The position numbers were made by a program, and so were the translations under genes. DNA of 64,000 nucleotides from Tubiluchus corallicola. Lineage: Eukaryota; Priapulida; Priapulimorpha; Priapulimorphida; Tubiluchidae. This document shows positions 31,277-55,986 of this stretch, piece after piece. The notes under the pieces are model-generated. The model was given only the letters and a program-made list of their open reading frames with translations. It did no database searches and had not been told where the DNA came from. The stretch is taken from assembly GCA_030141605.1 (NCBI GenBank), contig JAQGDQ010001053.1, positions 1 through 64,000 of the forward strand, read 5' to 3'. Position 1 is the first letter of the stretch, and every line of letters begins with the position of its first letter.

Positions 31277-31419
31277 TTAGCTAACTATGTAGCCTTTGAA
31301 TGTGCTGGCATAACTAGCTGTTGAAATGGAGGCACCAGTGTAGTATGTGACATAAACTTCATCTCCTGTTTCGAGATGAAGAATAGCAGAGTTTGATATC
31401 GTTTGCCACTCGCCACCAC
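31277..31419 (-). CDS. Gene B exon 11: C1q domain, C-terminal end and stop
   Basis: Acceptor TTGCAG, phase-1 start, 46 residues then TAA. S-N-S-A-I-L-H-L-E-T-G-D-E-V-Y-V and S-T-F-K-G-Y-I-V-S are the standard closing strands of a C1q domain. No canonical AATAAA was found just downstream on this strand. The equivalent exon of gene A is expected about 0.6-0.75 kb left of base 1. Confidence 0.87.
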
Positions 31420-55400: not shown

Positions 55401-55986
55401 AAAAGACATTGGAATCACAACGATTTTTTATTATAAGTGTAATTCGTTCATATTAAATATCAATTACTTGCAATTACAAATGTGTAATTACTTCTCAGAA
55501 AGGCTTACAGAATAGTCTACATGGGGTAAAACAGTACTGTGATTTCAGCTTGCTAAATATTTACATAGAAAAAACAAAATTAATTATTTTCAACAAAGGA
55601 GGTCACAGAATATCCAAGTAAAGTTTTACTTAGACCAGGATTTGATTAAATATCTGATCTGAATATTTTTGTAAAAACTATTATAGGTAAAAAAATTGCA
55701 AAGCATTAGGTACATCATTTTAGCACATAGATTTCAAAAGGAAGTACTACATACAACCTGTAAGCCATAAGCAGTTGCAGTAAACAATAAACCGTCAGAG
55801 TTAGTAAAAACATTACTATTATTCCACACAATATTTTTATCTAAAAGTACCAAAAGTACTTGTTTATACTACCTAAAAGAGCTTAATTAAAAACTAAGAA
55901 GTAGCTTTTCAAAAAAGATAACAATAAATTCACTTACCGCTTACAGCAAATACCAGTAGAATGGCTACTTTTGCAGTGACTGACAT
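31277..55986 (-). CDS. Gene B: secreted Cys-rich/Ig/C1q protein, complete 11-exon model
   Basis: Exons on the minus strand, 5' to 3': 55986-55938, 48533-48405, 47035-46913, 45774-45646, 43776-43459, 41778-41635, 40321-40127, 38205-37945, 36857-36747, 33963-33835, 31419-31277. All have AG acceptors and GT donors, and all internal junctions are phase 1. The total is 1731 nt, 576 aa plus a TAA stop. Domains: signal peptide 1-16, three Cys-rich modules about 17-59, 60-100 and 101-143, V-type Ig about 144-249, a second Ig split over two exons about 250-362, an I-type Ig about 363-449, and C1q about 450-576 ending in Y-I-V-S. No transmembrane segment is seen, so the product should be secreted. By family knowledge, C1q heads trimerise and bind ligands, and Ig-C1q fusions occur in mollusc VIgL proteins; an immune lectin role is inference. 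A TATA box lies about 80 bases upstream of the ATG. The model is by eye without transcript data; the module exons could be alternative. Confidence 0.82.
31588..31652 (-). ncRNA. tRNA-like sequence (tRNA-Ala(UGC)-type anticodon arm), probable SINE head or pseudogene
   Basis: On the minus strand, TTTGC-CTTGCAA-GCAAA forms an anticodon arm with loop anticodon TGC, followed by AGTTCAAATCC, a polymerase III B box. The D arm is poor and the acceptor stem does not pair, so a functional tRNA is unlikely. It lies in the last intron of gene B. Confidence 0.4.
33835..33963 (-). CDS. Gene B exon 10: C1q domain, middle
   Basis: A 129-nt phase 1-1 exon with the hallmark G-K-F-T-A-P-I-S-G-T-Y-S-F and then V-A-E-L-L-H-N-G. 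Donor GTAAGC. The copy-1 counterpart 2287-2159 is open but differs at about 26 of 129 bases, while the neighbouring introns differ by only about 5-7%. Confidence 0.88.
36747..36857 (-). CDS. Gene B exon 9: C1q domain, N-terminal third
   Basis: A 111-nt phase 1-1 exon (acceptor TTTCAG, donor GTATGT) reading F-A-F-S-V-Y-Y-P, then G-V-I-I-K-F, N-H-G-N-V-Y and S-S-S-T-G. This is the usual C1q opening (AFS.. / ..F....N.G..Y....G). It joins in frame to K-F-T-A-P-I-S-G-T-Y in the next exon, which completes the motif exactly as in C1q domains. Copy-1 counterpart: 5107-4997. Confidence 0.85.
37945..38205 (-). CDS. Gene B exon 8: I-type Ig domain
   Basis: A 261-nt phase 1-1 exon with a textbook I-set domain: L-K-C-E-A-D-A-N-P-P-P, then T-W-K-L-D, and D-T-G-E-Y-E-C-V-A-T-N-A-L-G. 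About 90% of residues are identical to the copy-1 exon 6448-6188, much closer than the V-type Ig. Confidence 0.9.
40127..40321 (-). CDS. Gene B exon 7: second half of second Ig domain
   Basis: A 195-nt phase 1-1 exon, acceptor TTTTAG, donor GTAAGT. It supplies the C'-G strands, with I-I-R-C-C-L-T-D holding the second Ig cysteine. An N-W-T and N-S-T pair are potential N-glycosylation sites. Copy-1 counterpart: 7255-7061. Confidence 0.82.
40388..40720. repeat. Short tandem repeat, unit about 37-50 bp, copy 2
   Basis: About seven units of TCTGACAGGGCTAGAAAATT followed by CAGCTAAACAT variants, an expansion of the three-unit array at 7318-7450. Confidence 0.75.
41635..41778 (-). CDS. Gene B exon 6: first half of second Ig domain
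   Basis: A 144-nt phase 1-1 exon. It carries strand A-B residues, the first Cys in T-F-K-C-I-I-A and the Trp of strand C in I-K-W-Y-L-G. The Ig domain continues in the exon at 40321, so this domain is interrupted by an intron while the other two are not. Copy-1 counterpart: 9449-9306. Confidence 0.85.
43459..43776 (-). CDS. Gene B exon 5: V-type Ig domain
   Basis: A 318-nt phase 1-1 exon holding one complete Ig domain. It shows the first Cys in L-E-C-R-I-N, the Trp in V-T-W-F-K-D-G-K, and the D-D-G-T-Y-V-C strand-F motif, ending in A-K-L-T-V-I. The copy-1 counterpart is 10566-10252, with roughly two thirds of residues identical. It is the first Ig of the mature protein and a likely contact surface (inference). 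Confidence 0.88.
44743..45418. mobile_element. Helitron-like non-autonomous element, copy A
   Basis: A 676-bp element nearly identical to 53842-54505. It starts TCGTGCCATT and ends with a hairpin (GCAAAA-TC-TTTTGC), then ten bases and CTAG followed by T, which is the Helitron signature (5'-TC, 3' hairpin plus CTRR, insertion before T). No terminal inverted repeats or target duplication. The base before TC is G in both copies rather than the usual A. Confidence 0.65.
45646..45774 (-). CDS. Gene B exon 4: Cys-rich module c
   Basis: A 129-nt phase 1-1 exon, acceptor CTTTTAG, donor GTAACT. Six Cys with C-x6-G-x-C-x5-C, then C-P-x2-P-x3-K-C-C. It joins through an Asp codon to the V-type Ig exon. 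A Helitron-like insertion ends about 230 bases downstream in the following intron. Confidence 0.72.
46275..46590. repeat. 104-bp minisatellite, first array
   Basis: Three units of CTCAGATAATCTACAATGTA ... GACGTTATCACACCTG ... GAATGAGTGACCTGGCC. It lies between modules c and b. Confidence 0.88.
46913..47035 (-). CDS. Gene B exon 3: Cys-rich module b
   Basis: A 123-nt phase 1-1 exon, acceptor TTTTCAG, donor GTAAGT. Six Cys with the same framework as modules a and c (C-x6-G-x-C-x5-C, then C-P-x2-P-x3-K-C-C). It is the most divergent of the three, and its flanks are not the duplicated block shared by a and c, so it is probably an older copy. Confidence 0.72.
47337..47460. repeat. TA/TAGA microsatellite
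   Basis: TATATA runs with TAGATAGA units in a gene B intron. No coding content. Confidence 0.85.
47475..48230. repeat. 104-bp minisatellite, second array
   Basis: About seven to eight units of the same 104-bp sequence as 46275-46590, between modules b and a. A single further unit lies at 49316-49400. Confidence 0.9.
48405..48533 (-). CDS. Gene B exon 2: Cys-rich module a
   Basis: A 129-nt phase 1-1 exon between a TTCTAG acceptor and a GTAATT donor. It has seven Cys and the spacing C-x5-G-x-C-x4-C, then C-P-x2-P-x3-x-C-C. This Gly-Cys...Cys-Pro...Cys-Cys pattern recurs in small extracellular Cys-rich modules of animals and protists; I cannot name the family with certainty. About 600 bases around it (48370-48940) are a duplicate of 45600-46230, which carries module c. 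Confidence 0.72.
49114..49313. repeat. TA then GA microsatellite
   Basis: About 20 bases of TA repeats followed by about 180 bases of nearly pure GA. Open frames of Ser-Leu on the minus strand here are artefacts. Confidence 0.95.
49434..49601 (+). pseudogene. RNase H-domain fragment of an LTR retrotransposon pol gene
   Basis: The plus-strand frame reads V-V-K-T-D-A-K-S-L, then R-I-A-R-W-I-L-L-L-Q-E-Y and H-I-P-G-V-K-N-E-C-A-D-A-L-S-R, and stops. This is the end of the Ty3/gypsy-type RNase H domain (T-D-x-K-S-L ... H-x-x-G-x-x-N-x-x-A-D-x-L-S-R). The rest of pol upstream is replaced by the GA microsatellite, and no integrase follows. Confidence 0.82.
49825..50348 (+). mobile_element. Candidate LTR (3' end of the same retrotransposon)
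   Basis: A purine-rich GGAGAGGGGGA precedes TGTCATGTTTC, and the block closes with GAACGTAACA about 524 bases on, so the ends form an imperfect TG...CA inverted repeat. Position 3' of the RNase H fragment with a polypurine tract fits a 3' LTR. No second LTR copy is in the window to confirm the boundaries. Confidence 0.45.
50485..52989 (+). mobile_element. L2/CR1-like LINE with 2A-like motif and endonuclease, RT deleted
   Basis: Two consecutive plus-strand frames, 50485-50826 (113 aa) and 50830-52989 (719 aa), lie in the same frame separated by TAA and one codon. The second begins with about 210 residues of several hydrophobic helices, then G-G-I-E-S-N-P-G-P-T (N218-P221), a 2A-like motif known from L2/CR1 elements. 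An AP-type endonuclease follows: H-I-N-I-Q-S-L, S-E-T-W-L (E277), M-G-D-F-N-I-N (D380), S-D-H (D447, H448). It stops right after the N-K-G-S-G-T-S-D-I-P lead-in to the RT domain, and a typical 3' tail (AATAAAGATTTT then TAC repeats, to about 53030) follows at once, so the RT was lost by internal deletion. It lies antisense in a gene B intron. Confidence 0.82.
52990..53030 (+). repeat. LINE 3' tail with TAC repeat
   Basis: AAATGGCAAATAAAGATTTT followed by TAC repeats, the sort of short 3' end used by L2/CR1 elements. Confidence 0.65.
53031..53841. other. Unclassified intron sequence
   Basis: Less AT-rich than its surroundings. A 94-codon open frame (53269-53553, with W-N-H-N-C-I-Q-M-Q-R-L-Y-Y) looks like transposon debris but I cannot assign it. 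Confidence 0.3.
53842..54505. mobile_element. Helitron-like non-autonomous element, copy B
   Basis: A 664-bp sister of 44743-45418 in the same orientation, with the same TC start, 3' hairpin and CTAG end followed by T. Flanks differ from copy A, so the shared part defines the element's ends. Confidence 0.65.
55240..55625 (+). pseudogene. LINE reverse-transcriptase fragment
   Basis: Frames encode N-I-G-V-T-Q-G-C-I-L-C-P-V-L-F-N-L-F-I, the RT motif G-V-x-Q-G-x-x-L-x-P-x-L-F. After a frame disruption comes L-N-I-Y-I-E-K-T-K-L-I-I-F-N-K-G-G, the downstream RT segment. The catalytic aspartates are missing from the intervening part. It is a degraded, 5'-truncated copy. Confidence 0.75.
55938..55986 (-). 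CDS. Gene B exon 1: signal peptide
   Basis: The ATG at 55986 opens a 16-codon hydrophobic leader (MSVTAKVAILLVFAVS) followed by one base and the donor GTAAGT, so the exon ends in phase 1. This matches the phase-1 starts of all downstream domain exons. Joined to the exon at 48533 the leftover G makes a Val codon and leads straight into the first Cys-rich module. The homologous copy-1 exon at 14466 has the same leader but no donor. Confidence 0.8.

Follow-up and report, generated by a model that had tools for sequence, protein, structure and literature searches.

A stretch of DNA from Tubiluchus corallicola (the window, i.e. the whole 64 kb analysed, positions 1–64000 of a 67401-base contig; the assembly comprises 343.5 Mb in 2344 contigs) raises the question of whether three cysteine-rich modules, three immunoglobulin (Ig) domains and a C1q head are encoded by one gene, and from which known parts such a gene could have been put together. 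A sequence-only reading had proposed a complete gene of this content.

Exons and domains of the gene model

By in silico splicing, 11 exons of the minus strand (55986–31277) give a product of 576 aa followed by a stop, with GT-AG at 10 of 10 introns and an entry phase of 1 for each of E2–E11; all exons lie at the ends first proposed for them. E1 (55938–55986) contains the start codon and the leader MSVTAKVAILLVFAVS with donor GTAAGT, and upstream of it lies a TATA-like element (TGCTATAAAAAGGC, 56064–56077, minus strand) that is present too upstream of the leader of a tandem copy (copy 2, see below). Modules 1, 2 and 3, each with six Cys, are encoded by E2 (48405–48533), E3 (46913–47035) and E4 (45646–45774). 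They are followed by a V-type Ig domain in E5 (43459–43776), the first and second halves of a C2-set Ig domain in E6 (41635–41778) and E7 (40127–40321), an I-type Ig domain in E8 (37945–38205), and a C1q domain in three parts in E9 (36747–36857), E10 (33835–33963) and E11 (31277–31419), the last of which includes the stop.

According to Pfam, Ig_3 matches three stretches of the product (4.7e-23), V-set is matched at 8.6e-6, C2-set_2 covers the 'split' Ig of E6–E7 (4.1e-11, a CD80-like match), and C1q (PF00386) covers E9–E11 (4.5e-19; 69.3 bits, cut-off 23.7). Together with the Cys pattern, these matches uphold the order leader, modules, V-Ig, split Ig, I-Ig, C1q. The sequence-only reading had pointed to HMM families of Ig, C1q and Cys-rich type; the first two are matched, and for the modules no Pfam family reaches its cut-off. 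Among the 10 Pfam families listed for the product there is no collagen region at E up to 10, no peptidase or hydrolase is matched by Pfam in the product, and Rfam and tRNA scans of the 64-kb window found nothing. No other stretch of the product comes near the N-terminal leader in hydrophobicity (the sole criterion used), and the product is thus probably secreted, as had been proposed.

Family and fold of the cysteine-rich modules

The three modules have the Cys spacing Cx6Cx5Cx7-9Cx8CC. The rusticalin repeat has six Cys ending in CC with a spacing near Cx6Cx6-7Cx8Cx7CC (PMC6339383), and every gap in the window modules is within one residue of the published rusticalin range. Among the modules compared, the six Cys are kept in 14 of 14, a Gly stands two before the second Cys in all 14, and a Pro follows the fourth Cys in 13; cysteine-rich repeats are described with conserved Gly and Pro at positions 10, 21, 26, 30 and 29, 31 (PMC7379824), a numbering that is not matched with certainty to that of our modules. 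By sequence pattern, the modules resemble the rusticalin-type cysteine-rich repeats (PMC6339383, PMC7379824), and elsewhere in this genome they are linked to an amidase; a reading of them as an undescribed kind is not supported. Chance open frames as a source of the modules are argued against by three 1-1 exons with a common Cys pattern and by relatives on four other contigs.

The literature likens repeats of this family to beta-defensins and often finds them joined to bacterial-wall hydrolases (PMC7379824, PMC6339383); in the set of 382 cysteine-rich-repeat proteins, 63 of the 124 with annotated domains accompany such hydrolases (Amidase_2, M15; PMC7379824). These proteins contain the same module type as the window gene, their partners being Amidase_2 and M15; the main text of PMC7379824 mentions neither Ig nor C1q as a partner, and the words 'immunoglobulin' and 'C1q' are absent from it (0 occurrences). 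Rusticalin and rusticalin-like proteins have been reported from tunicates, cephalochordates, a coral and a placozoan (Styela rustica, Ciona, Branchiostoma, Alveopora, Trichoplax), and like the product of the window gene they open with a signal peptide and carry beta-defensin-like repeats of six Cys at the N-terminus (PMC6339383). In rusticalin, two repeats are followed by an MD-clan peptidase at the C-terminus; in the window gene, three repeats are followed by the Ig-C1q part. In this genome, the module(s) on contig C2286 precede an amidase (Amidase_2, 2e-13); less surely, the C215 loci, which resemble the rusticalin layout with two repeats and then an M15-like region, appear to join modules to an M15-like peptidase (M15_3 only 0.011, below cut-off).

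A search of the three modules against 5.8 billion proteins gave 4 candidates and no match. In Pfam they reach Defensin_beta_2 (15.1 bits; cut-off 22.2) and Defensin_beta (9.9–10.4 bits; cut-off 21), both below cut-off, and 0 of 20 Cys-fixed shuffles of the modules matched either family. AlphaFold models, made for modules 2 and 3, have a helix and a three-stranded beta-defensin-like topology; defensins head the structure lists, with all scores weak. Beta-defensins have the disulfides 1-5, 2-4 and 3-6, and a defensin-like domain may also be carried by oyster PGRPs. A profile of the three modules found nothing credible in the PDB. With a profile of 14 modules, partial hydrogenase matches were on top (14 of 28 rows), beta-defensins took 12 rows (E 1.5–5), and the remaining rows were one antifungal protein and one zinc-finger protein; module 2 alone found no defensin among 7 rows, and module 3 alone found beta-defensin 7 on top (E 0.78), followed by six hydrogenase rows. 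As modelled, the modules probably have a beta-defensin-like fold. Beta-defensins and big defensins share their six-Cys order and predicted fold; the window modules differ in being acidic and not cationic (net charge −1, −4 and −1 for modules 1–3), tandem, and contained in a large protein.

Relatives of the Ig-C1q part and uneven divergence of the copies

The parallel with molluscan Ig-C1q proteins drawn by the sequence-only reading holds for the QREPs (C1q-related proteins), a VIgL subfamily of gastropods with a massive expansion in Caenogastropoda, reported in the accessible parts of the sources only from Heterobranchia and Caenogastropoda (PMC10672478, PMC6835236). QREPs and the window gene (with its probably secreted product) alike have N-terminal Ig domain(s) and a C-terminal C1q head; the former have one or several Ig-like domains and the latter three (V, C2 and I types), and cysteine-rich modules, three in the window gene, are not mentioned for QREPs in those same parts. 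The gastropod FREP, CREP and GREP VIgLs also combine an Ig part with a lectin-like C-terminal head, which, as far as the accessible text goes, is a fibrinogen, C-type lectin or galectin domain instead of C1q (PMC9334734). The sSUEL/C1q proteins of bivalves likewise place a binding domain ahead of C1q, with a SUEL lectin where the window gene has Ig domains and modules (PMC6835236, accessible part).

When 5.8 billion proteins were searched with the full-length product or with a three-row profile, one of the 7 matches at E ≤ 0.001 combines Ig and C1q. This protein, P0001 (512 aa, from a 2122-base public contig), is 52% identical over 53% of the query and runs, like the window gene, from a leader through V-Ig, C2-Ig and I-Ig to C1q; it lacks the modules. 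An extra linker of about 60 residues separates I-Ig from C1q in P0001 and has no match among the window matches listed. Since 512 aa come from a 2122-base contig, P0001 is read without introns, and it is probably from cDNA. A second such search at E ≤ 10 gave 23 matches, of which P0001 alone has Ig and C1q (16 have Ig only and 6 C1q only), and no named Ig-C1q protein was among the 23 by a word-based search of limited reach.

Searched against this genome, P0001 has 84 matches at E ≤ 0.001, the best at 66% identity, which speaks against this locus set as its origin. V-Ig-type matches number 15 on 7 contigs (37–56% identity; V-type matches below 37% were left out of the counts), and 6 of the 15 contain stops, which in the longer matches may fall in introns, so that the six need not all be pseudogenes. 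There are 7 C1q matches on 7 contigs, three of which (C685, C2181, C2023) are also V-Ig contigs, and an E11-like exon lies on C392. Judged from these sequence matches, the Ig-C1q genes look like members of a clustered family in the genome.

A tandem copy within the window (copy 2), absent from the sequence-only reading, repeats E5–E10 on the same strand at 10566–2159 in the same order and phase as the main gene. Its leader MSLTAAVAILLVFAAS (14419–14466, minus strand) has no donor and is followed by a stop; its exons are E5, V-Ig (10252–10566), E6 (9306–9449), E7 (7061–7255), E8, I-Ig (6188–6448), E9, C1q part 1 (4997–5107) and E10, C1q part 2 (2159–2287), and the expected place of its last exon is past the contig start. 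No modules were found by tblastn between 14419 and 10566. Three observations place the gene model beyond chance, namely this paralogue with its shared E5–E10 order and phase, a dN below dS in the Ig domains, and the domain order of P0001.

The two copies have diverged unevenly. Their upstream regions are 89.9% identical, and the introns 3' of E8 are 88–94% identical with one block further down at 84%; the introns between E8 and E6 are 67–98% identical in pieces, and nothing is alignable in the E6–E5 introns. Gene conversion at the ends is a likely cause. Between the copies, V-Ig has a dS of 1.2 and a dN/dS of 0.19, and the three Ig domains have dN/dS of 0.19–0.35, which speaks against positive selection on the whole gene. 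E10 differs at 26 of 129 sites as compared to 39 of 797 in its 400-base flanks (P 5e-8); E8 has a slight excess over its flanks (P 0.03), but not against all introns of the block (P 0.37), and E9 has no excess over its flanks (P 0.13). In E10, dS (0.245) is raised as well as dN (0.240), pointing to exchange with another gene, alongside or instead of selection. Among the modules, E2 and E4 go back to a single duplication that spans at least 530 bases, and they differ at 31 of 126 exon sites and 26 of 399 flank sites (P 2e-7). A three-module cassette with tandem repeats (45614–48938, minus strand) has a segmental copy of 4.4 kb on another contig (C548:30583–34987); between the two, two of three module exons exceed their flanks (P 0.02, 0.04), the third goes in the opposite direction (P 0.10), and the pooled excess of dN (0.17) over dS (0.11) is not significant. 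These sequence comparisons fit diversifying change in the faces of the modules and of C1q, combined with conversion elsewhere, a pattern that does not prove selection.

One gene or two, and a possible role of the product

We consider it rather probable that a single gene at this locus encodes a secreted recognition protein of immune type that arose by exon shuffling, with a rusticalin-type cassette in intron 1 of an Ig-C1q gene. Most likely, the three symmetrical (1-1) module exons would have been inserted as a cassette into intron 1 of an Ig-C1q gene of the local family, and leader, module and Ig-C1q exons would be spliced together; each module exon being 1-1, the reading frame would be kept in every isoform, whatever its number of modules from 0 to 3. 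The main competitor, a serious one that we nevertheless hold to be unlikely, is that two genes overlap here: an ordinary Ig-C1q gene (leader, E5–E11), and a module cassette that sits within intron 1 of that gene and is silent, decayed or separately expressed. The module half and the Ig-C1q half can indeed exist apart, since copy 2 and P0001 both lack modules, and on C548 the copy of the cassette is interrupted by an in-frame stop ahead of its third-module donor and has no Ig or C1q exons near it in the 60 kb read. In addition, of the 7 V-Ig contigs counted, only that of the window has module matches (three matches at E 0.3–0.7 being left out of the counts), and among the sequences found in our analysis there is no transcript that joins the leader to the modules or the modules to V-Ig. 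Against two genes, the cassette lies on the same strand, phases match at all joins, the donor after E4 is open, and the three module frames are intact; the excess of differences in E2 and E4 over their flanks is not what a silent cassette is expected to have. A scan of 13–30-codon ATG exons in 56200–48500 speaks against a separate leader for E2–E4: apart from E1, the only leader-type exon that it gave with a phase-1 donor lies at 48622, and the acceptor of E2 would have to serve as its donor.

For the single gene, a mode of action can be outlined. C1q heads of the C1q/TNF superfamily usually associate as trimers; those of the window product may do the same, giving a particle of three arms that each bear three Ig domains and three modules. 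Surface determinants would be bound by the Ig and C1q faces; the modules, at a guess from their company with wall hydrolases, might bind bacterial wall material, and the multivalent particle could agglutinate or opsonise microbes. We prefer binding to membrane lysis because the modules are acidic. That charge, unlike that of cationic membrane-active defensins, is also why we find it quite improbable that the modules are released by cleavage, or work as membrane-active antimicrobial peptides borne by a recognition scaffold, for all their probable beta-defensin-like fold and the proposal of the rusticalin authors that bacterial walls are perforated. Slightly less probable still is a cell-adhesion or developmental protein with no immune role: the best match after P0001 is a named synaptogenesis-type Ig protein, an irregular-chiasm-type one is also matched, and an immune function is inferred from domain company alone, but the clustered multigene family with its variable V-Ig exons, the fast divergence of some exons and the wall-hydrolase company of the modules speak against it. 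That the modules are peptidase-regulating subunits, the alternative of the rusticalin authors based on a resemblance of the repeats to a tick carboxypeptidase inhibitor (PMC6339383), is the least probable, as the window protein has no peptidase or hydrolase match and the modules on C2286 precede an amidase.

We give an even chance to the full form of the single-gene account, according to which a mobile cassette, present in duplicate and consisting of three exons for bacterial-wall modules with a beta-defensin fold, was inserted in frame before an antibody-like Ig-C1q scaffold, yielding an all-recognition molecule (wall-binding modules, variable Ig, multimerising C1q) of which two module exons and one C1q exon outpace the introns. 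Its parts are known (QREP-like Ig-C1q proteins, rusticalin repeats) and the combination seems new; the earlier claim of an undescribed recognition molecule survives for the combination only. The searches of 5.8 billion proteins and of the open literature contained no protein with modules, Ig and C1q, which is weak evidence, subscription papers and supplements lying outside.

If the exons are co-spliced, the locus would be a concrete case of exon shuffling, in which a humoral recognition protein was built from antibacterial-wall modules and Ig-C1q parts, and a single genome would hold the duplicate cassette, the gene that received it and a sister copy without modules. The rusticalin authors left undecided whether the repeats attack bacteria or regulate the attached peptidase (PMC6339383); use of the modules in an enzyme-free protein would favour an independent binding role for rusticalin repeats.

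Repeats and open frames of the proposed module-Ig-C1q gene

The gene unit (the 11-exon minus-strand model coding for a leader, three Cys-rich modules, three Ig domains and C1q) is flanked on both sides by a minisatellite of about 61 bases, found at 57984-59874 and 28896-29261 of the window. Intron 1 of the gene holds the open frame of a non-LTR retrotransposon (50827-52989, plus strand), which contains an endonuclease domain (7.1e-7) and the 2A-like motif GGIESNPGP. A 100-residue open frame is found in the intron between exons E7 and E8 (39802-40101, minus strand).

Surroundings of copy 2

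Upstream of the V-Ig exon of copy 2, the module-free tandem paralogue, what may be the remains of a decayed second V-Ig were spotted by eye (11025-10777, minus strand). The window also contains a Cys-rich open frame (17309-17731, plus strand) whose fold, judged by eye, resembles that of prokineticin or colipase; it has no match in a Pfam search.

Module and Ig relatives on other contigs

Elsewhere in the same assembly, a single exon at C1024:267647-268087 codes for two modules, followed by a region of no known type and a stop, and PAN and Sushi domains are coded close to this exon. Seven matches of the I-Ig type are arranged in tandem in one array (C1416:12340-23200).

A neighbouring receptor-like gene and a possible second one

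Neighbouring the Ig-C1q gene is a receptor-like gene (27137-20591, minus strand) with a CUB domain (E-value 5.9e-7) and a SUEL lectin match that falls below the cut-off (E-value 0.0028). Inspection by eye adds a segment that probably spans the membrane and a tail containing tyrosines. At 62097-61480 (minus strand) an open frame resembling a tail carries the tyrosine motif NS[IL]Y[DA] five times; it has no match in a Pfam search and may belong to another receptor gene as its signalling tail.
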